From positions 1 through 64,000 of the forward strand of contig JAPKYJ010000021.1 of NCBI GenBank assembly GCA_026394375.1: a stretch of DNA of 64,000 nt, read 5' to 3'. Positions 543 through 34,268 of this stretch are shown here, one piece after another. The translations under genes were made by a program, and so were the position numbers. Below the pieces are notes generated by a model. It saw only the letters and a program-made list of their open reading frames with translations. It did no database searches and had not been told where the DNA came from. Position 1 is the stretch's first letter. Every line of letters begins with the position of its first letter. This DNA comes from Methanomassiliicoccales archaeon (GTDB taxonomy: Archaea > Thermoplasmatota > Thermoplasmata > Methanomassiliicoccales > UBA472).

Positions 543-1559
543 CTATTGGATTGAAACCGAATCAGGGGTTTTATATTGGATTTGAAGTCCATCTCTCTTA
601 ATTCTCCCCATCAGGTCATGGATGGAGAGTTTCGTCAAATCAACCAGTCCTATCACTAAGACCGCTTTCCCCTTCCTCTGTATTGGGACGCAGATAACTG
701 GCACGCCCGTGTACAGTCCGATTTTGGGAACAGTCCTAAGTGTCTTGCCTGTCCTTAAGGCCTCTTCCAGGTAGGGTCCTGTGTACCTATCGCTGACTAT
801 CAATCCTTCTTCGCAGAGGACCCCAAGCTGGTTCTTCGTCCTTATCGCAACGGGCATATACCCTACGAGCTCATGAATGGCAATGGCAAGGCATTTTACG
901 TCTTCTGGGTCCATAAACTCCGACAGTAGGCCGTTCTCCTTCCCGCATCTGAATGAAGGGGCGTGGAGTCTGAGCGCTGCTGTCACGGCGCCCTTCTCGG
1001 CCACATCGTACGAATTGGCGGTGCCAATTATCAAGGCGTCCCCGTCGCGGATTCGAAATAGCTGATTAAGCTTGTCAGAAGTCGACTGGTCGGGGTACTT
1101 CTCATCGCCCGGGAATACCATTCTTCCGCCTAGTGCTATGAGCGTGGTTGCGCCGATCGCACCTGCTTTCACTGCGTCATCTCTCTGTTCGCAGCCATCT
1201 TTCACCAGAGGTGCCACGCATCTTGCGAGGACGGCGCAGTCAATTTCACCGAGTGTTATGTTCTCGATCTCAATTGGCCGTATTTCGATGCCGAGGCTGC
1301 TCAGTCTCCTTTGGCCCTGGTCAGTAATAGAGGCTCCCCGCCTTGACAACTCTATGGACCCATCTTCCTTCATCTTCTCCATTATAGTCCTCACTGTGCC
1401 CTCGCCCAGGTCAAGGATCTCGGCCAGCTCTTTCCTGCCAACGGATCCTCTTTCAACAATGATAGAGTACATCTTCCAGATATGGTAGATCGTGTACCTC
1501 TGCGACGGATTGTCCATGAAGTATGCGAAAAGGGAAGCTACCATCGAAACCGAATACAT
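543..1559 (-). CDS. Winged-helix regulator with DUF4443/DUF2111-like domains
   Basis: This 338-aa protein has an N-terminal winged helix (about residues 20-80, with the helix-turn-helix segment VGRKELAEILDLGEGTVRTI). A middle domain (about 90-215) contains a GAIGATTLIALGG stretch. A C-terminal domain (about 225-325) contains AIHELVGYMPVAIRTKNQLG and resembles archaeal DUF2111. No catalytic motif is visible. It sits downstream of ramA on the same strand, 300 bp away, so a role in sensing or controlling corrinoid-dependent methyl transfer is a contextual guess. Other in-frame ATGs lie at 1544 and 1517, and the true start is uncertain. The domain names are from memory. Confidence 0.6.
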   Translation of the reverse strand: MYSVSMVASLFAYFMDNPSQRYTIYHIWKMYSIIVERGSVGRKELAEILDLGEGTVRTIMEKMKEDGSIELSRRGASITDQGQRRLSSLGIEIRPIEIENITLGEIDCAVLARCVAPLVKDGCEQRDDAVKAGAIGATTLIALGGRMVFPGDEKYPDQSTSDKLNQLFRIRDGDALIIGTANSYDVAEKGAVTAALRLHAPSFRCGKENGLLSEFMDPEDVKCLAIAIHELVGYMPVAIRTKNQLGVLCEEGLIVSDRYTGPYLEEALRTGKTLRTVPKIGLYTGVPVICVPIQRKGKAVLVIGLVDLTKLSIHDLMGRIKRDGLQIQYKTPDSVSIQ

Positions 1560-7398: not shown

Positions 7399-7782
7399 AT
7401 GCCCGTCGTTTCCATATCCCTGGACGAGGAGAGCCTCAGACTGCTGGACCGGGTGCAGAAGGCGAACGGTCTCTCGGGAAGGAGCGAGGCGGTGCGCGTC
7501 TGCCTGCGTTCCGCGGAGGCAGAGGTCCGCGATCGGGAGGGCTTGAAGGACGATGTGGAAGGCGTTCTGGTCGTCGTGCACGGCAGCCACAACGAGCCCG
7601 GCCTGGATGATCTGAAACACAACTACCAGGACGTGGTCGCCACGCAGATCCATTCCCACCTCAAGGACCAGAAGTGCCTGGAGGTCTTCATCGTCCGCGG
7701 ACCTTCACAGGTGGTGCAGAAGATGCTCCTCAGCTTCCAGAGGGATGACAAGATCGACTACGTCAAGTTCGTGCAATCCTAG
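7399..7782 (+). CDS. nikR: Nickel-responsive regulator NikR
   Basis: A 127-aa NikR. It has an N-terminal ribbon-helix-helix domain (PVVSISLDEESLRLLDRVQK, residues 2-45) and a C-terminal ACT-like nickel domain. The high-affinity nickel ligands are all present in NikR spacing: H in LKHNYQ, then H-S-H and, six residues after the second His, C in IHSHLKDQKCLEV. The protein should bind operators when nickel is plentiful. The ATG at 7399 gives the standard length; the longer frame from 7255 adds residues with no counterpart in the family. It is followed by an ABC-2 exporter 73 bp downstream, possibly co-transcribed. Confidence 0.93.
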   Translation: MPVVSISLDEESLRLLDRVQKANGLSGRSEAVRVCLRSAEAEVRDREGLKDDVEGVLVVVHGSHNEPGLDDLKHNYQDVVATQIHSHLKDQKCLEVFIVRGPSQVVQKMLLSFQRDDKIDYVKFVQS

Positions 7783-26965: not shown

Positions 26966-27059
26966 GAATCTCACTCATTGGTGAAGAGTTCAAGAATCTT
27001 TCCCTGGTTCTAGCGCAAGAGTATCGGGAATCGTCGAAGAGCATGAGGACGGAATTATT

Positions 27060-27076
27060 GGATGGTACATCCATCC
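27060..27076 (+). promoter_or_regulatory. Operator-like palindrome A of the uptake operon
   Basis: GGATGG, TACAT, CCATCC. The arms extend by one further complementary pair (T...A). Its centre is 23 bp from palindrome B, about two helical turns, so two dimers could bind side by side. It lies about 160 bp before the first gene of the operon. Confidence 0.55.
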
Positions 27077-27082
27077 ATAATT

Positions 27083-27099
27083 GGATGGTTTATCCATCC
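27083..27099 (+). promoter_or_regulatory. Operator-like palindrome B of the uptake operon
   Basis: GGATGG, TTTAT, CCATCC, preceded by TT as in the other two copies. Together with palindrome A it forms a tandem site upstream of the substrate-binding-protein gene. The likely regulator is a metal- or cofactor-sensing dimer. It does not resemble the known NikR site. Confidence 0.55.
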
Positions 27100-27230
27100 G
27101 TAGCACTTCCACTGGAAGTCTGGCTAGTCTTCGAAGGGTTGATAAACACCTTTGACGATAGGCCGCGTGCGAAGAGGCAAGGGAGGGGCGTTAACGCCGT
27201 TATCCCGCGTCTTTCATCGGAGGAACGGAC

Positions 27231-28679
27231 ATGGCAAGCAAGGTCGTCATAGCGTTGACGGTGCTGGTCTTGGTCTCAGCCGGGGTGCTCGGTGCCCTGG
27301 TGCTGATAAACCCCGAACCAGAAGACACAAAGGTGAGTGCGAAGTTCGATAGCCCTTTGGACGGGTCCACGGTGAGCGGTGTGATAGGGATCAACGCTAA
27401 CGTGACCAGCAAGAAGGCCATATCCTACGTCGTCCTCAGGCTCGATGACCAGACCATCGGCAACAAGACCATAGCCCCCTTCAGCTGGGAACTGAACACA
27501 ACGCAACACGCCGAAGGACAGCACAACCTCAACCTTACCGCCGTCAACAGTGCCGGAGGGAGGGGCCAGTCGCAGGTCACGGTCACGATCAACAACGGCG
27601 GGACCACAGTTGGAATCACCTCCCCCAACAACATGTCGCACGTGAGCGGCGATGTCTTGGTGATGGCACAGGTGGTCAGCCCTCGCACCGTGAAGTACGT
27701 AAGCTTCGAGCTCGACGGAGATGAGGTCGCCAATCTATCCGCCGCCCCGTACGCGCTTCAGTGGAACACGAGCACCGCCTACAATGGGGAGCACGCCATA
27801 CAAGTCAAGGCGGTCGACATCCTCAACATGTCTTGCCACGCCACGATAATCTTGATCGCCGACAACCCTTTCACATATAGGGACGCAAGAGGGATCGATG
27901 TCTCATTCCCCCGGATACCGCAGAGGATCGTGACCCTGGGCAACTCTTTCACTGAGGTGGTGTTCGCCGTCGGTGCGGGAGGGCAGCTCGTGGGCCGGGA
28001 TAGCAAGAGCGTCTATCCGTCCGAAGCGCTCGCGGTGACGGATGTGGGCGGGACCTACGGGACTTCGATAAACAAAGAAGCGATCATTGCCACCATCCCC
28101 GATCTGATAATCGCCTGGAAGTACGCGACCACCGCCTCTGCCATCACTACGCTGGAGGCGGATGGCTACAAGGTCGTGGCATTGTCTCCTTCCAGCATCG
28201 ATACGGTAAAATTGGAGATTCAGGACATCGGAATAATAGCCGGGCACAAGGTGGAAGCGCAGAAGATCGTGCAAAACATGACCGAGCGCATCAACAGAGT
28301 GATCGAGAAGGTGCCGGTCATTCCGGACAGCCAGAGGCCCAAGGTCTACTTCGAGCTGCGGAACGGCAACACCGTCAACAACACCACTATGAGCGGGGAG
28401 ATCATCCGCCTGGCGGGAGGGCTCAACATCTACGGCAACGCCACCAAGACCAACCCCATTCCGAGCAGCGAGGTGACCATCAGCCGCCTGCCCGCCTTTA
28501 TTGTGATAGAAGATCAGAGCATAGTGACCAATGCAGACATCGAAGCGCGGTCCGGGTGGAGCATCATCCCTGCGGTCCAACTGCACCAGATATACCGCAT
28601 CAACGGCGAATGGATGACTGCGACTCCCCGGCTGGTGAACGCCATTGAGCAGATGCTGCAATGGTTTTATCCCAGCTGA
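27231..28679 (+). CDS. ABC substrate-binding protein with two Ig-like domains
   Basis: A 482-aa surface lipoprotein-like or membrane-tethered binding protein. It has an N-terminal hydrophobic anchor (residues 5-27). Two bacterial Ig-like domains follow (about 33-120 and 121-212; SPLDGSTVSGVIGINANVTS opens the first). The rest is a BtuF/FhuD-type periplasmic-binding fold (about 215-482; PQRIVTLGNSFTEVVFAVGA, then IPDLIIAWKY). This fold binds cobalamin, haem or ferric chelates. GGAGG precedes the ATG. It is first in an operon with a radical SAM gene and the matching permease and ATPase. Confidence 0.88.
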   Translation: MASKVVIALTVLVLVSAGVLGALVLINPEPEDTKVSAKFDSPLDGSTVSGVIGINANVTSKKAISYVVLRLDDQTIGNKTIAPFSWELNTTQHAEGQHNLNLTAVNSAGGRGQSQVTVTINNGGTTVGITSPNNMSHVSGDVLVMAQVVSPRTVKYVSFELDGDEVANLSAAPYALQWNTSTAYNGEHAIQVKAVDILNMSCHATIILIADNPFTYRDARGIDVSFPRIPQRIVTLGNSFTEVVFAVGAGGQLVGRDSKSVYPSEALAVTDVGGTYGTSINKEAIIATIPDLIIAWKYATTASAITTLEADGYKVVALSPSSIDTVKLEIQDIGIIAGHKVEAQKIVQNMTERINRVIEKVPVIPDSQRPKVYFELRNGNTVNNTTMSGEIIRLAGGLNIYGNATKTNPIPSSEVTISRLPAFIVIEDQSIVTNADIEARSGWSIIPAVQLHQIYRINGEWMTATPRLVNAIEQMLQWFYPS

Positions 28680-28708
28680 GCAGTGGGGGTAGGGAAGGAA
28701 GATACCCA

Positions 28709-29416
28709 ATGGCCGTCTACCGGGTCGGGTACCAGGAGGAGCTGTGCCAGGCCATCCTCTACAACCATGGGTGCAACTGGACCTGCAGCATATGCTCCTA
28801 CAAGCTTAGAGAGGGATTCGCTCCCTCGCGTTTCCTTTCCACCGATGAAGTGCTCGAGTGCCTTTCCTCCTTCAGACTGGAGAGGCTCCTCATCCTCGGC
28901 GGGGAGCCGCTCACCTGCGCTGACCTTGATGTCATGGTCTCGGAGGCGAAGGCCCGCGGAGCCTGGGTCAAGATCGCGCACTCCAACGCCTCCTTCATGC
29001 CGCCGGAGGGAGTCGACGAGATGGGCATCAGCTTGAGGGCGATCAGCAAGAGGAAGCATCAGCAGCTCACCGGGGCACCGAACACCAAGGTCCTGGGCAA
29101 TTTGTACGCCATTAGGGACCGGGGCGTGGAGCTGGAAGTGAGCACTATCCTCATCCCCGAGGTTGTGGACGCCGACGAGATAGGCAAGATCGCGGAATTC
29201 CTTGCCGAGGTGGACGAGGAGATACCTCTGCACATCACTGCATTCCTTCCCGTTCCAGGAATAACCTGGCGCGGACCTACGGATGGAGAGATGGCGATGG
29301 CCATGCAGGCTGCGAGAGCGCACCTGAAGAACGTCTCCGGGTCCAGTCTCAGCGCTCGCGAGTATTTCGCTCCAAGCGCAAAGGACACGATGCAGCACCG
29401 CGACGGGGTGCACTGA
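28709..29416 (+). CDS. Radical SAM protein within an ABC uptake operon
   Basis: A 235-aa minimal radical SAM enzyme. The cluster motif is HGCNWTCSICSYKL (CxxxCxxC, near residue 22). The glycine-rich SAM patch is LLILGGEPLTCADLD. VSTILIPEVVDADEIGKIAE lies on the late barrel strands, as in the pyruvate-formate-lyase-activase type. No SPASM or other auxiliary cluster domain is visible. The ATG at 28709 follows GGGAAGGAAG. It lies between the substrate-binding protein and permease genes, with the permease start 2 bp after its stop. Its substrate is unknown; modification of the imported cofactor or of a transporter part is conjecture. Confidence 0.85.
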   Translation: MAVYRVGYQEELCQAILYNHGCNWTCSICSYKLREGFAPSRFLSTDEVLECLSSFRLERLLILGGEPLTCADLDVMVSEAKARGAWVKIAHSNASFMPPEGVDEMGISLRAISKRKHQQLTGAPNTKVLGNLYAIRDRGVELEVSTILIPEVVDADEIGKIAEFLAEVDEEIPLHITAFLPVPGITWRGPTDGEMAMAMQAARAHLKNVSGSSLSAREYFAPSAKDTMQHRDGVH

Positions 29417-29417
29417 C

Positions 29418-30461
29418 TTGGTGCCGAGCATCGAGGAGTTGCACCAGAAGAAGCTCGCCTTGTGGACCCTGGTCCTGGTAGTGCTGATCGGCGGCCTAGT
29501 GGTCGCTTCCATCATCGGCATCTGCGTGGGGGCGATAAGCATCTCGCCGGGAAAGGTCTTCGCGATCCTAACCGGACAGATAACGGATCCTTCGGACCCA
29601 GACGTTACAATAATCAGAATGGTCCGATTGCCAAGGGTATTGCTCGGTGCGGTCGTGGGCGCAGCCCTGTCGATCGCAGGGGTGGCCATGCAGGGCGTGT
29701 TCCGCAATCCGATGGCCTCGCCATCAGTGTTGGGCATTTCATCGGGGGCGGCGTTCGGGGCGTCCCTGGCCATCGTTTTGGGGTTCAGCTTCGTCAGCGG
29801 CCAGTTCGCCATACCCGTGATGGCCTTCGTTTTCTGCATGGCCACCATGTTCCTGGTCTATGGCATCTCCCGCACCGGGGGAATAGTACCGGTGGAAACG
29901 CTCCTGCTCGCCGGGATCGCGGTGGGCTCGCTATTCGCCGCCCTGGTCTCCTTCATGCAATTCATCGCTGAGGAGAAGCTCAGCTCAGTCGTCTTCTGGC
30001 TCATGGGCGGTCTCAACCAGGCGACGTGGGGTCAGCTCATGGTCGTCACTCCCCTCATCGCTCTCGGTTCCCTGATAATATTCTGGCATGCCAGAGATCT
30101 CAATCTCATGACCATCGGCGAGGACCACGCCTCCAGCCTTGGCGTGGAGACCCAGAAGGTGATCCTTAGGCTGATGGTCGCTACCTCCCTGGTAGTTGCT
30201 GCCGCCGTTTCCGTCTCGGGGGTCATCGGCTTCGTCGGGTTGATCATTCCGCACATGATCCGCCTGATGGTCGGCCCGGACCACCGCATACTCATGCCTG
30301 CCTCGATACTGGCAGGAGCCTCGTTCATGATCGTCACGGATGCCCTCGCGAGGATCCTCATGGCACCTTCAGAAATGCCGGTGGGCATACTCACAGCACT
30401 AATCGGCGCTCCCTTCTTCCTCTACCTCCTGAGGAGAAGGCGGCACATGATGGGGTGGTAG
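29418..30461 (+). CDS. FecCD/BtuC-type ABC permease
   Basis: A 347-aa permease with about ten membrane helices. FecCD marks include RMVRLPRVLLGAVVGAALSI, GVAMQGVFRNPMASPSVLGI and the ATPase-coupling loop region SVSGVIGFVGLIIPHMIRL near the C-terminus, followed by ARILMAPSEMPVGILTALIG. It forms the channel for the binding protein at 27231. The start is the TTG at 29418 (GTG at 29421 is an alternative), with GGGGTG upstream. It overlaps the ATPase gene by 7 bp. Confidence 0.92.
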   Translation: MVPSIEELHQKKLALWTLVLVVLIGGLVVASIIGICVGAISISPGKVFAILTGQITDPSDPDVTIIRMVRLPRVLLGAVVGAALSIAGVAMQGVFRNPMASPSVLGISSGAAFGASLAIVLGFSFVSGQFAIPVMAFVFCMATMFLVYGISRTGGIVPVETLLLAGIAVGSLFAALVSFMQFIAEEKLSSVVFWLMGGLNQATWGQLMVVTPLIALGSLIIFWHARDLNLMTIGEDHASSLGVETQKVILRLMVATSLVVAAAVSVSGVIGFVGLIIPHMIRLMVGPDHRILMPASILAGASFMIVTDALARILMAPSEMPVGILTALIGAPFFLYLLRRRRHMMGW

Positions 30462-31276
30462 CCACGCGCCTCAAGGTCCAAGGGGTGGAGTTCGGGTACA
30501 AGAGCGTTCGCGTTCTGGACGGAGTGGGTTTCGAGGCCGAGGCGGGCGAAGTGATCGGCGTCCTCGGTCCGAACGGTTCGGGCAAGACCACGCTTCTAAA
30601 GTGCATGAACAAGGCGCTCAAGCCGAAACTGGGCTCGGTACTGGTGGACGATCGGGAAGTATCTGACCTAACGAGGAAGGAGATCGCGAGGGAGATGGGC
30701 GTAGTGCCGCAGAACAGCGGCGTGAACTTCCCCTTCACCGCCCTGGAGATCGTGCTCATGGGAAGGGGTCCGAGCCTTGGGCGCTTCCAGACCGAGGGCG
30801 ATGAGGACCTGAGAATCGTTAAGAGGTCCATGAAGGCGACGGACGTGCTGGAGCTCGCCGCCCGGCCCATGACCGAGCTCAGTGGGGGCGAGAAGCAGCG
30901 GGTGATCATCGCCCGAGCGCTCGCGCAATGCCCGAAAATATTGCTGTTGGATGAGCCGACACTGCATCTGGATGTGAACCATCAACTGGAGATCATGGAC
31001 ATCGTCCGGCACCTGGCCAGGGAACAGCGCCTCACCGTGGTGATGGTCTCCCATGACCTGAACCTGGCGGCGCGCTATTGCGACAAGCTCATCCTTCTCC
31101 TAGAGGGAAAGGTCCTGGCGGCGGGGAAGGTGGAGGAGGTGCTCACCAGCGAGAACATGGAGCGCGTCTTCAAGATCCGCGGGTCGGTGCAGTACGACGG
31201 GAACGTCAATACCTGGACCGTGAGCATCCTCGGGGCGCTGCCCCGCCAAAATGAGATCGGCGGGGACAGTGATTAA
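30455..31276 (+). CDS. FecCD-associated ABC ATPase (FepC/BtuD type)
   Basis: A 273-aa ATPase with Walker A GPNGSGKTT, Q-loop VVPQNSGVNFPF, signature ELSGGEKQRVIIARAL, Walker B ILLLDEPTLHLD and switch VSHDLNLA. The FPFTALEIVLMGRGPSLGRF stretch is typical of iron-chelate and cobalamin importers. The start GTG 30455 lies within the end of the permease gene. With the permease and binding protein it forms a complete importer. Confidence 0.92.
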   Translation: MVATRLKVQGVEFGYKSVRVLDGVGFEAEAGEVIGVLGPNGSGKTTLLKCMNKALKPKLGSVLVDDREVSDLTRKEIAREMGVVPQNSGVNFPFTALEIVLMGRGPSLGRFQTEGDEDLRIVKRSMKATDVLELAARPMTELSGGEKQRVIIARALAQCPKILLLDEPTLHLDVNHQLEIMDIVRHLAREQRLTVVMVSHDLNLAARYCDKLILLLEGKVLAAGKVEEVLTSENMERVFKIRGSVQYDGNVNTWTVSILGALPRQNEIGGDSD

Positions 31277-31310
31277 AAGCGACCAGCCCCTTCCACCAAG
31301 TGGTGAGGTA

Positions 31311-31640
31311 TTGCCTTCTTCCGTCAGGGTGGACATGACCATCTGCTCGCATCAGACCGTCATCCGAGCGAAGGACCGGGGCGACGGTATCGTGGACATC
31401 GACATCGAGAGCGAGTGCGATTCGGTGAGGCATTACGCTTCAAAACTGAAGTTCGCCAGCATTCAAGACCTGACCGAGTGGGAAGGCTCGAAGGTGCTGG
31501 AGCTCGCGTCGAAATCCGGCTTGACCACCACCTGCCTCATCCCCACGGCGGTCTTCAACTGTTGCTGGGTCGAGCTGGGCATGATCTCCAGGAGCCTGGC
31601 CAAGGACAAGAGCCCGTTGTGCATGCATTTTGTGGACTAG
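31311..31640 (+). CDS. Small cysteine-rich protein after the uptake operon (DUF6951-like)
   Basis: A 109-aa protein with six cysteines (ICSH, ESECDS, TTCLIP, FNCCWVE, LCMHF). From memory it resembles the small methanogen family DUF6951, whose members start VxVDxxICxF; here the N-terminus is VRVDMTICSH. The TTG at 31311, three bases after GGTGAGG, includes that motif, unlike the ATG at 31335. It is 35 bp after the ATPase gene and probably part of the same unit. Metal or cluster binding is plausible but not shown. Confidence 0.6.
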   Translation: MPSSVRVDMTICSHQTVIRAKDRGDGIVDIDIESECDSVRHYASKLKFASIQDLTEWEGSKVLELASKSGLTTTCLIPTAVFNCCWVELGMISRSLAKDKSPLCMHFVD

Positions 31641-32789: not shown

Positions 32790-33413
32790 TCAAGCGTTCC
32801 TGGCCTTGATCAGCCAGTCACGATAGTACCTACCCAGGTCGGTCAAGGAGATCTCGATGCCGTCCCGGACGGAGGTTCGCAGCAGTCCCAAGTTCTTTAG
32901 TTCAAGCAGAACTCCGACATCGAACCTGTCCTTTCGATCCATGGACCTTCCGTCCGGTCCCAAGCGCATGCCTTCCCTAAGCCTCAGGAGCACATCGACC
33001 TGTCTGGGATCGAGGCGCTCGCCCATTCCGGGCATCCTCAGCACCGGGAGGCGGACCACCCGGTCATCCACATGATAGGCTTCCACACCCGTCTGGAATG
33101 CGGCGAGCATGGCCGCGGAGGAGAGCAATCCGGTGCCTCCGCTGACATTGACAATCACTTCCTCCCTAGCCTTCTTCCTGCTTTCGATGCTGTCGGCGAT
33201 CTTCTGGAAAGCCTGCAACAGGTCGAACTTGTCCACGATGATCACCTCCATCGGCGTGGAAGCGATATCGCACACCCGCTCGATCTCCGAGAAATCGTCG
33301 CGAAAGGTGTTGTCCTCGCTGGTTATGAGCACAAGACGATCGTGGCCGAGGGCCCTCATCGCCCTTGTCACCTTCGCCTTGTCGAAGCCGAAGGTCGAGT
33401 AGAGCACTCTCAT
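32790..33413 (-). CDS. CARF-domain winged-helix regulator 2
   Basis: A 207-aa protein. The N-terminal Rossmann-like CARF domain (residues 1-130) starts MRVLYSTFGFDKAKVTRAM and carries the ligand-loop motif EEVIVNVSGGTGLLSSAAML. The C-terminal winged helix (about 140-207) includes DVGVLLELKNLGLLR. CARF domains sense cyclic oligonucleotides or related nucleotides, classically with CRISPR systems. It starts 5 bp after the stop of a similar gene at 33418-34056. No cas gene or CRISPR array is in the window. Confidence 0.78.
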   Translation of the reverse strand: MRVLYSTFGFDKAKVTRAMRALGHDRLVLITSEDNTFRDDFSEIERVCDIASTPMEVIIVDKFDLLQAFQKIADSIESRKKAREEVIVNVSGGTGLLSSAAMLAAFQTGVEAYHVDDRVVRLPVLRMPGMGERLDPRQVDVLLRLREGMRLGPDGRSMDRKDRFDVGVLLELKNLGLLRTSVRDGIEISLTDLGRYYRDWLIKARNA

Positions 33414-33417
33414 ACCC

Positions 33418-34056
33418 TCACCCCAGCAGAAGGCGCATCGACTCCTCCACCTTGATGATCTTGGTGCGTCGGTCGCCAGGTTTCGGTTCCAGATGGATAG
33501 CCCCCTTGTCCAGTAGCTCCTTGATGTGGTGGTTGATAGTGGCCTTGTGTAACCCCATCTTCTCCGCCAGCTCGCCCTGCGACATCCTCCCGTTCTCGCT
33601 CTGCAAGAGCATCTGGAGCAGGTTGCGTTGGGCGGGCGTGAGCACGGACGAGTACTCCATCTGCAGCAGCGGCAGGGGTATCTCCTTCAGAGTGTCATCG
33701 TGCACATAGGCCGAGTTCAGCCCTTGCACGATGCACACCAGCAGAGCGGCGGCGCTCATCAGCCTCGTTCCGCCTGCGATGTTGAAGACAGCGATCCTCT
33801 CGCCCTCGTTCTTGACCTTGCGCACCTCCGCCTTGATGATCTCGGCGATGTGCAACAGGTCGAAAGCGTCCTGAAGGGTGATGAGGCGGAAGCGGATGTC
33901 CAGGGTCTGGCAATACTCCTTGATCCTGGCCGCCGCCTTGGCGGAATCGGGATGCTCGCTAACGAACACCACCACCTCGCTCAGGTCATCGCAGGACTTC
34001 AGCGTGGGCATGAGCGATTCCGGGCGGAAACCGAGGGTACCGAGGACAGCTACCAT
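33418..34056 (-). CDS. CARF-domain winged-helix regulator 1
   Basis: A 212-aa protein. The CARF-like domain has MVAVLGTLGFRPESLMPTL at the start and FNIAGGTRLMSAAALL as ligand loop. The winged helix (about 140-205) contains GRMSQGELAEKMGLHKATIN and HHIKELLDKG. The ATG at 34056 is preceded by GGTGA and has a TATA box at 34112-34120. The longer frame runs back through the tRNA gene and is not real. It is first in a two-gene operon; the two proteins could form a heterodimeric sensor or regulate each other. Confidence 0.78.
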   Translation of the reverse strand: MVAVLGTLGFRPESLMPTLKSCDDLSEVVVFVSEHPDSAKAAARIKEYCQTLDIRFRLITLQDAFDLLHIAEIIKAEVRKVKNEGERIAVFNIAGGTRLMSAAALLVCIVQGLNSAYVHDDTLKEIPLPLLQMEYSSVLTPAQRNLLQMLLQSENGRMSQGELAEKMGLHKATINHHIKELLDKGAIHLEPKPGDRRTKIIKVEESMRLLLG

Positions 34057-34111
34057 TTCGTCACCACGCAGACAATCGGGTGCTTTGAGATGGTGATTGT
34101 CTAATACTGTC

Positions 34112-34120
34112 TTAATATTA
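34112..34120 (-). promoter_or_regulatory. TATA box for the CARF operon
   Basis: On the minus strand this reads TAATATTAA, about 55-65 bp before the ATG at 34056, predicting a leader of about 30 nt. Confidence 0.45.
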
Positions 34121-34195
34121 TTGATATCATTTCTCAGGATAAAAGGTTCGAGGGAAAGGAGTTGCGAAGAACGAGAAAGAAGAAGGGAGGGGTGG

Positions 34196-34268
34196 CGCCC
34201 CGGTCGGGATTCGGACCCGAGTCCCAAACTCGACAGGCTTGGATGATAGGCCGCTACACTACCGGGGC
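34196..34268 (-). tRNA. tRNA-Asp (anticodon GTC)
   Basis: It folds as a complete cloverleaf on the minus strand. The acceptor is GCCCCGG/CCGGGGC, the anticodon stem CAAGC/GTTTG with loop CTGTCGA, and the T stem TCGGG/CCCGA. The discriminator is G, and CCA is encoded (34193-34195). The D stem has the G10-T25 wobble usual in tRNA-Asp. T-loop position 55 reads C where T is nearly universal. Confidence 0.95.

Follow-up and report, generated by a model that had tools for sequence, protein, structure and literature searches.

The 64,000-nucleotide stretch analysed here (hereafter the window), from contig JAPKYJ010000021.1 of a Methanomassiliicoccales archaeon (assembly GCA_026394375.1), carries at positions 27231-31640 an operon of five open reading frames (ORFs), all on one strand, encoding a binding protein, a radical S-adenosylmethionine (SAM) enzyme (hereafter rSAM), a FecCD permease, an ATPase, and a DUF6951 protein. 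With a probability that we place at about one half, this operon specifies an ATP-binding cassette (ABC) importer that takes up a transition metal in chelated form, with nickel (perhaps along with cobalt) as the likeliest metal and the rSAM as a cytosolic enzyme dedicated to it. In the proposed scheme, the binding protein would catch a metal-ligand complex, which would be imported by the FecCD permease and the ATPase. In the cytosol, the rSAM, using a 4Fe-4S cluster, SAM, and a 5'-deoxyadenosyl radical, would attack or remodel the organic ligand, leading to metal release; this step would resemble that of HutW-type enzymes, which in the absence of oxygen liberate iron by opening heme. The three-cysteine DUF6951 protein of Methanomassiliicoccales, whose predicted fold weakly resembles IscU, may receive or carry the metal, and the freed metal would serve F430 of methyl-coenzyme M reductase as well as hydrogenases. 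The more specific proposal, that the rSAM attacks the ligand of an imported organic nickel complex by radical chemistry and so sets the nickel free, as a nickel counterpart of anaerobic heme opening, is tentative and in our estimate rather doubtful.

The operon includes the component set of a NiuBDE-like importer by Pfam (FecCD permease, ABC ATPase, and Peripla_BP_2 binding protein), and the host is taken to be a methanogen because its genome encodes McrB (PF02241/PF02783). An earlier note on this DNA had described an importer operon with a built-in rSAM, and the single-strand layout, the Pfam domains, and the conservation of the arrangement agree with that description. Homologue comparison resets the rSAM start to ATG 28709 rather than 28661, placing it 29 bases past the binding-protein stop. 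The tight spacing to the permease noted earlier is also present, but its length is 1 base (TTG 29418) or 4 bases (GTG 29421), depending on the permease start, instead of exactly 2.

The rSAM belongs to a compact family of ~235-265 aa. In the window protein, the motif C22-x3-C26-x2-C29 is accompanied by a PF04055 match of 43.6-43.9 bits against a cut-off of 29.5. In an alignment of 52 family sequences, these cluster-motif cysteines are invariant, along with Y31, L52, GGEP64-67, H91, G122, P150, H175, I176, P181, V182, and P183, and no auxiliary-cluster cysteines are conserved. Fourteen members show a good match solely to the general Pfam Radical_SAM model, and the window protein reaches no NCBIfam equivalog cut-off (best scores: NrdG2, 45/131 bits; YjjW, 39/250; MoaA, 37/284). 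Judged by sequence, the rSAM thus fits no named subfamily, and none with a known unrelated role, as the earlier note had considered, accommodates it. Its AlphaFold model (predicted local distance difference test, pLDDT, 91.5) shows a partial TIM-barrel fold, for which Foldseek returns pyruvate formate-lyase (PFL) activase as the closest match (3c8f, template modelling (TM) score 0.70), followed by NifB and MoaA. In the rSAM tree, the window protein groups with those of genomes G005, G004, and G016 with full support. In-frame stops reported in the rSAM matches of G001, G004, and G009 do not count as evidence of recoding; in G004, the stop belongs to the binding-protein gene ahead of the rSAM.

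A collection scan with the window rSAM as single query retrieved no relatives; a 14-sequence rSAM profile yielded 62 loci, which span Thermoplasmata, Methanosuratincola-type archaea, Lentisphaerae, Planctomycetes, Verrucomicrobia, Chloroflexi, Acetothermia, and Deltaproteobacteria. Rows from one contig or from sister genomes in this count are not independent, many loci are metagenome bins, and most neighbours beyond the checked ones were named by eye or by likeness to a few query proteins. Importer genes adjoin the rSAM in 45 of the 62 loci: FecCD-type importer parts were read in 33, a binding protein only in four, an energy-coupling factor (ECF) transporter in five, and a TauABC-like transporter in three. 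Since 45 loci from several phyla share this pairing, it is not due to chance, and the possibility raised in the earlier note, that the rSAM stands beside unrelated genes in most relatives, is not what was found. The order shown by most loci, binding protein-rSAM-permease-ATPase, recurs in unrelated phyla. Among the carriers of the binding-protein and rSAM genes is the cultured Victivallis vadensis DSM 14823. The ECF form comprises a fused double ATPase, a CbiQ-type T component, and a 212-aa membrane protein matching no Pfam family, and in Deltaproteobacteria the rSAM gene comes after the CbiQ-type T component. A phylum-wide scan found the enzyme in 21 of 390 genomes. As separate observations, a PNPOx-like 135-aa protein is encoded ~35 bases behind the rSAM gene in one Methanomassiliicoccales branch (L294, L300, L301, L303, and L306), and a DUF3344 protein lies upstream of the operon in Planctomycetes and Verrucomicrobia (L271, L281, L287, L302, L308, and L309), as checked by Pfam in L287 only, where a weak dockerin match was also present.

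Closer relatives vary in gene order. Within family f1, G004 has binding protein-rSAM-permease-ATPase-DUF6951, with which G008 and G012 agree as far as their contig fragments extend; G005 and G009 have binding protein-permease-ATPase-rSAM(-DUF6951) with a different binding protein, and in G001 and G016 the rSAM gene is convergent with the importer genes. Family f5 (G025 and G028) keeps the four-gene order without DUF6951, and families f3 and f6 (G023 and G026) have the importer and DUF6951 without the rSAM. In the permease tree, f1 permeases cluster with the rSAM-less f3/f6 ones, and those of f5, other Thermoplasmata, and Chloroflexi rSAM operons form a separate clade. The tree and the gene orders together therefore indicate that the rSAM and DUF6951 can each occur without the other and that permeases of more than one lineage have been joined to the rSAM. 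As a whole, the five-gene order that the earlier note proposed to search for is not universal. Distances in the rSAM and permease trees correlate (r 0.43 for 36 gene pairs and 0.60 for 22 mostly bacterial pairs, with 0 of 2000 shuffles as high), a correlation that could be explained by shared descent alone.

Gene context makes nickel the most likely substrate metal. In a euryarchaeal locus (L260), hypF, hypE, hypD, hypA, and nikR adjoin the rSAM operon; in a Phycisphaerales locus (L307), hypA, hypF, hypD, and hypE lie upstream (HypA, HypF, and HypD by Pfam, HypE by similarity); and in L257, [NiFe]-hydrogenase subunit genes adjoin it. Within the fetched flanks, nikR occurs in related Deltaproteobacteria (L279, L280, and L282), related Planctomycetes (L281 and L287), L309, and L365, the last from another Thermoplasmatota family, which amounts to about five independent cases. 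Fifty control loci (472 kb) contained no nikR and three hypF genes, although all controls come from one order and provide only a rough yardstick. The co-occurrence of a TonB receptor, ECF genes, and the rSAM in L280, L282, and L290 suggests that the imported substrate is a complex rather than a bare ion. Six Methanomassiliicoccales loci, mostly from termite-gut bins, continue from the rSAM into genes for a methyltransferase and a CobW-type GTPase.

Upstream of the operon lie operator-like sites (Table 1). Five f1 promoters from three genera share TGGATGG-N5-CCATCCA and the downstream CGAAG-N5-ATAAA, which may represent a B recognition element (BRE)/TATA box. The palindromic core TGGATG...CATCCA was found in 59 of 61 genomes (reversed control 0 or 1; sites include G000:C31:9993 and G000:C6:10986), and a related motif, TTGGATG-N3-CATCCAA, precedes cobamide genes throughout the order. 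A variant, motif B (GGATGGNTNATCCATCC), occurs in 23 of the 61 genomes with a reversed control of 0 and stands before mcrBDGA operons, which encode the nickel-F430 enzyme. Of 27 motif B loci read (domains checked for some), ~13 precede mcrB, nine corrinoid-protein/methyltransferase genes, three this operon, and one cobamide genes; motif B thereby links the operon to methanogenesis. Together, TGGATG...CATCCA and motif B delineate a candidate methanogenesis/cobamide regulon. A helix-turn-helix (HTH) protein with DUF2111 and DUF4443 domains, whose gene is preceded by a motif site and is divergent from an atwA-mcrC-like pair (G000:C6; L118:5009-5902), is only a candidate for the regulator that might read such sites. 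A paralogue of this HTH protein, with both domains, is encoded at window 543-1559 (minus strand). A DUF4430 transcobalamin-like label, given by eye to surface proteins associated with motif A, was dropped, as the one tested (L217) had no Pfam match to that domain. The literature on mcr regulators, like that on rSAM enzymes with nickel or cobalamin transport, yielded no account of this system.

Table 1. Operon genes and promoter elements in the window
Feature	Position	Strand	Basis and remarks
Extracellular binding protein, 482 aa, 2x Big_7 (Ig-like) + Peripla_BP_2	27231..28679	+	Pfam
Minimal radical SAM enzyme, 235 aa, C22xxxC26xxC29	28709..29416	+	PF04055; start from homologue comparison; ORF opens 28661
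FecCD-family permease	29418..30461	+	PF01032, 324 bits; start TTG 29418 or GTG 29421
ABC ATPase (ABC_tran)	30455..31276	+	PF00005; 7-base overlap with permease
DUF6951 protein, 109 aa	31311..31640	+	PF22263; ORF opens 31251; start probably TTG 31311, preceded by GGTGAGGT
Operator-like palindrome TGGATGG-TACAT-CCATCCA	27059..27077	.	Conserved in five genomes, three genera; genome-wide search
Second operator-like site TGGATGGTTTATCCATCC	27082..27099	.	Motif searches, promoter alignment
Conserved CGAAG-N5-ATAAA, BRE/TATA-like, ~35 bases downstream of second operator-like site	27132..27146	+	Invariant promoter-alignment columns

Several observations weigh against a nickel importer with a dedicated enzyme. 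NikR or Hyp genes lie near only a minority of rSAM loci, several of which are close relatives, and Feo iron genes adjoin the loci L258 and L278. Some rSAM genes stand without an importer, with no recognised partner in nine of the 62 loci, a PNPOx-like protein in five, and only a CobW-type GTPase in three. The window operon itself has no adjoining nickel gene, being followed by a histone-deacetylase-like amidohydrolase gene and then panD/RNase H. GTAACAC-N14-GTGTTAC, tried as an archaeal NikR operator, was rejected as a general one, occurring in 5 of 61 genomes, no better than its reversed control; it forms a perfect dyad in one rSAM-less importer promoter (L099), and the dyad scan of the 61 genomes found no general NikR operator. 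In addition, the operator-like site of the window operon is as similar to the motif of cobamide genes as to that of mcr, which keeps cobalt or a corrinoid among the possible substrates.

The latter point bears on the reading that the operon imports a corrinoid (cobamide), which the rSAM would remodel or salvage for methyltransferases. Corrinoid models are among the nearest NCBIfam models for the permease, ATPase, and binding protein, the half-site TGGATG...CATCCA of the window palindrome also precedes cobamide genes across the order, and corrinoid methyltransferase operons are preceded by motif B. However, every NCBIfam corrinoid cut-off was missed (BtuF, 79.5/234 bits; BtuC, 331/461; corrinoid ATPase, 280/537), and Rfam matched no cobalamin riboswitch near 20 bacterial relatives (about 266 kb scanned), such a riboswitch being common, though not obligatory, in bacterial BtuFCD members. 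No cob/cbi gene recurs in rSAM operons, in which the informative neighbours are instead hyp, nikR, and hydrogenase genes, and the same genome already holds another BtuFCD-like operon, with a CobD/HisC-type aminotransferase gene behind and a cobamide-type motif in front. Corrinoid import is therefore unlikely, and the leaning of the earlier note towards cobalamin is not supported.

The earlier note had left open whether the enzyme remodels the import or modifies a transporter part. Because the same rSAM is joined to non-homologous transporter classes, it is unlikely to act on a transporter protein, and an imported ligand or metal complex fits better; the association with more than one permease lineage and the failure of any exporter to recur in the operons read point the same way. 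The constancy of the rSAM while the transporter class varies would also suit an enzyme that makes a metallophore, which is secreted and then re-imported through the adjacent transporter, and the TonB receptors in Deltaproteobacteria are compatible with a chelator. Metallophore synthesis is nonetheless quite improbable, as there is one small enzyme, and the lack of a recurrent exporter or second biosynthetic gene in the operons read speaks against it. Slightly less probable still is that the rSAM modifies or activates a protein (as a glycyl radical activase, NifB-like cluster builder, or maturase of ribosomally synthesized and post-translationally modified peptides), with its operon position reflecting shared regulation only. 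The fold similarity to PFL activase and NifB and sub-cut-off sequence matches to activases and MoaA favour such a role, but no recurrent glycyl radical enzyme or precursor peptide was observed next to the rSAM, and the adjoining proteins vary between lineages.

The DUF6951 protein is a looser partner of the importer, being multicopy (mostly 2-5 per genome) and present behind rSAM-less importers; its linkage to the rSAM operon was seen only in Methanomassiliicoccales. It was rejected as a strict system part, as copies also accompany mcr-linked, arsenic, FeoB, and corrinoid genes. Its PF22263 match in the window reaches 67.4 bits against a cut-off of 27. The six cysteines remarked upon earlier are present in the window protein, of which only C12, C36, and C75 are invariant among 23 aligned homologues. 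The best Foldseek matches of its model (pLDDT 94) are IscU, SufU, and SufE, weak at E 0.055 and TM about 0.5, and sequence comparison with IscU in the PDB gave no match. With its invariant cysteines and this predicted fold, the protein may plausibly carry a metal or a cluster. No account of this system was found in the literature on DUF6951. DUF6951 loci (e.g., L081, L082, L085-L087, L094, and L097) lie beside mcr-linked, Acr3 arsenic, permease/ArsR, FeoB, and corrinoid methyltransferase genes.

Elsewhere in the window, a divergent NikR-like protein (7402-7782; NikR_C, 46.9 bits) is encoded upstream of an ABC ATPase gene, and the amidohydrolase gene (PF00850; 31677-32783) lies directly 3' of DUF6951 in several family f1 genomes. 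Two adjacent CARF-domain proteins of the Csa3 type, of which one carries a MarR-like HTH, are encoded at 32790-34227 on the minus strand.

Among known systems, the operon would work most like a NiuBDE-type importer with an added enzyme. NiuBDE, an importer of the FecD/FecE type, takes up nickel and cobalt in Helicobacter pylori, and its promoter is a possible NikR target (PMC5140060). It shares the FecCD-type permease, ATPase, and binding protein but lacks an rSAM and DUF6951, and the annotated H. pylori operon contains permease and ATPase genes only. BtuFCD belongs to the same transporter superfamily and is among the best, below-cut-off NCBIfam similarities of the window importer, which differs by its embedded rSAM, by bacterial relatives without the riboswitch, and by nickel genes near several relatives. 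PFL activase has the nearest solved fold and shares CxxxCxxC and the lack of conserved auxiliary-cluster cysteines, whereas identity is 14%, no glycyl radical enzyme is adjacent, and H91, H175, and PVP181-183 mark the rSAM family. HutW and ChuW (~445 aa) are likewise radical SAM enzymes tied to metal-chelate acquisition without oxygen, but members of the rSAM family are smaller, gave no match to an NCBIfam model of that kind, and accompany transporters of several classes. Anaerobic heme opening by HutW frees the metal from its ligand (PMC10035031). The nickel/cobalt transporter families reported for archaea in 2009 were Nik/CbiMNQO, NikABCDE, and NiCoT only (PMC2667541); these share nickel/cobalt uptake and, in the deltaproteobacterial form, the CbiQ-type T component, whereas a FecCD-type importer with an rSAM is not among them, nor does Pfam recognise the ECF-form membrane protein. 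No description of the rSAM-importer pair was found in Pfam, NCBIfam, the PDB, or open-access literature, although an account elsewhere is possible, so that the earlier view of a system of undescribed make-up is largely borne out.

The rSAM importer block is thus probably an undescribed route of nickel acquisition. Nickel supply limits methanogenesis and hydrogen metabolism, and the nickel-binding ligands of anaerobes and the enzymes that handle them are almost unknown; the conserved importer-enzyme pair offers a concrete gene set leading toward such a ligand. The operator-like site common to mcr promoters in the order provides a testable candidate regulon for methane formation, the transcriptional control of which is poorly known. 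If the proposal holds, a nickel-freeing rSAM system would occur widely in both archaea and bacteria, together with no fewer than three classes of transporter.

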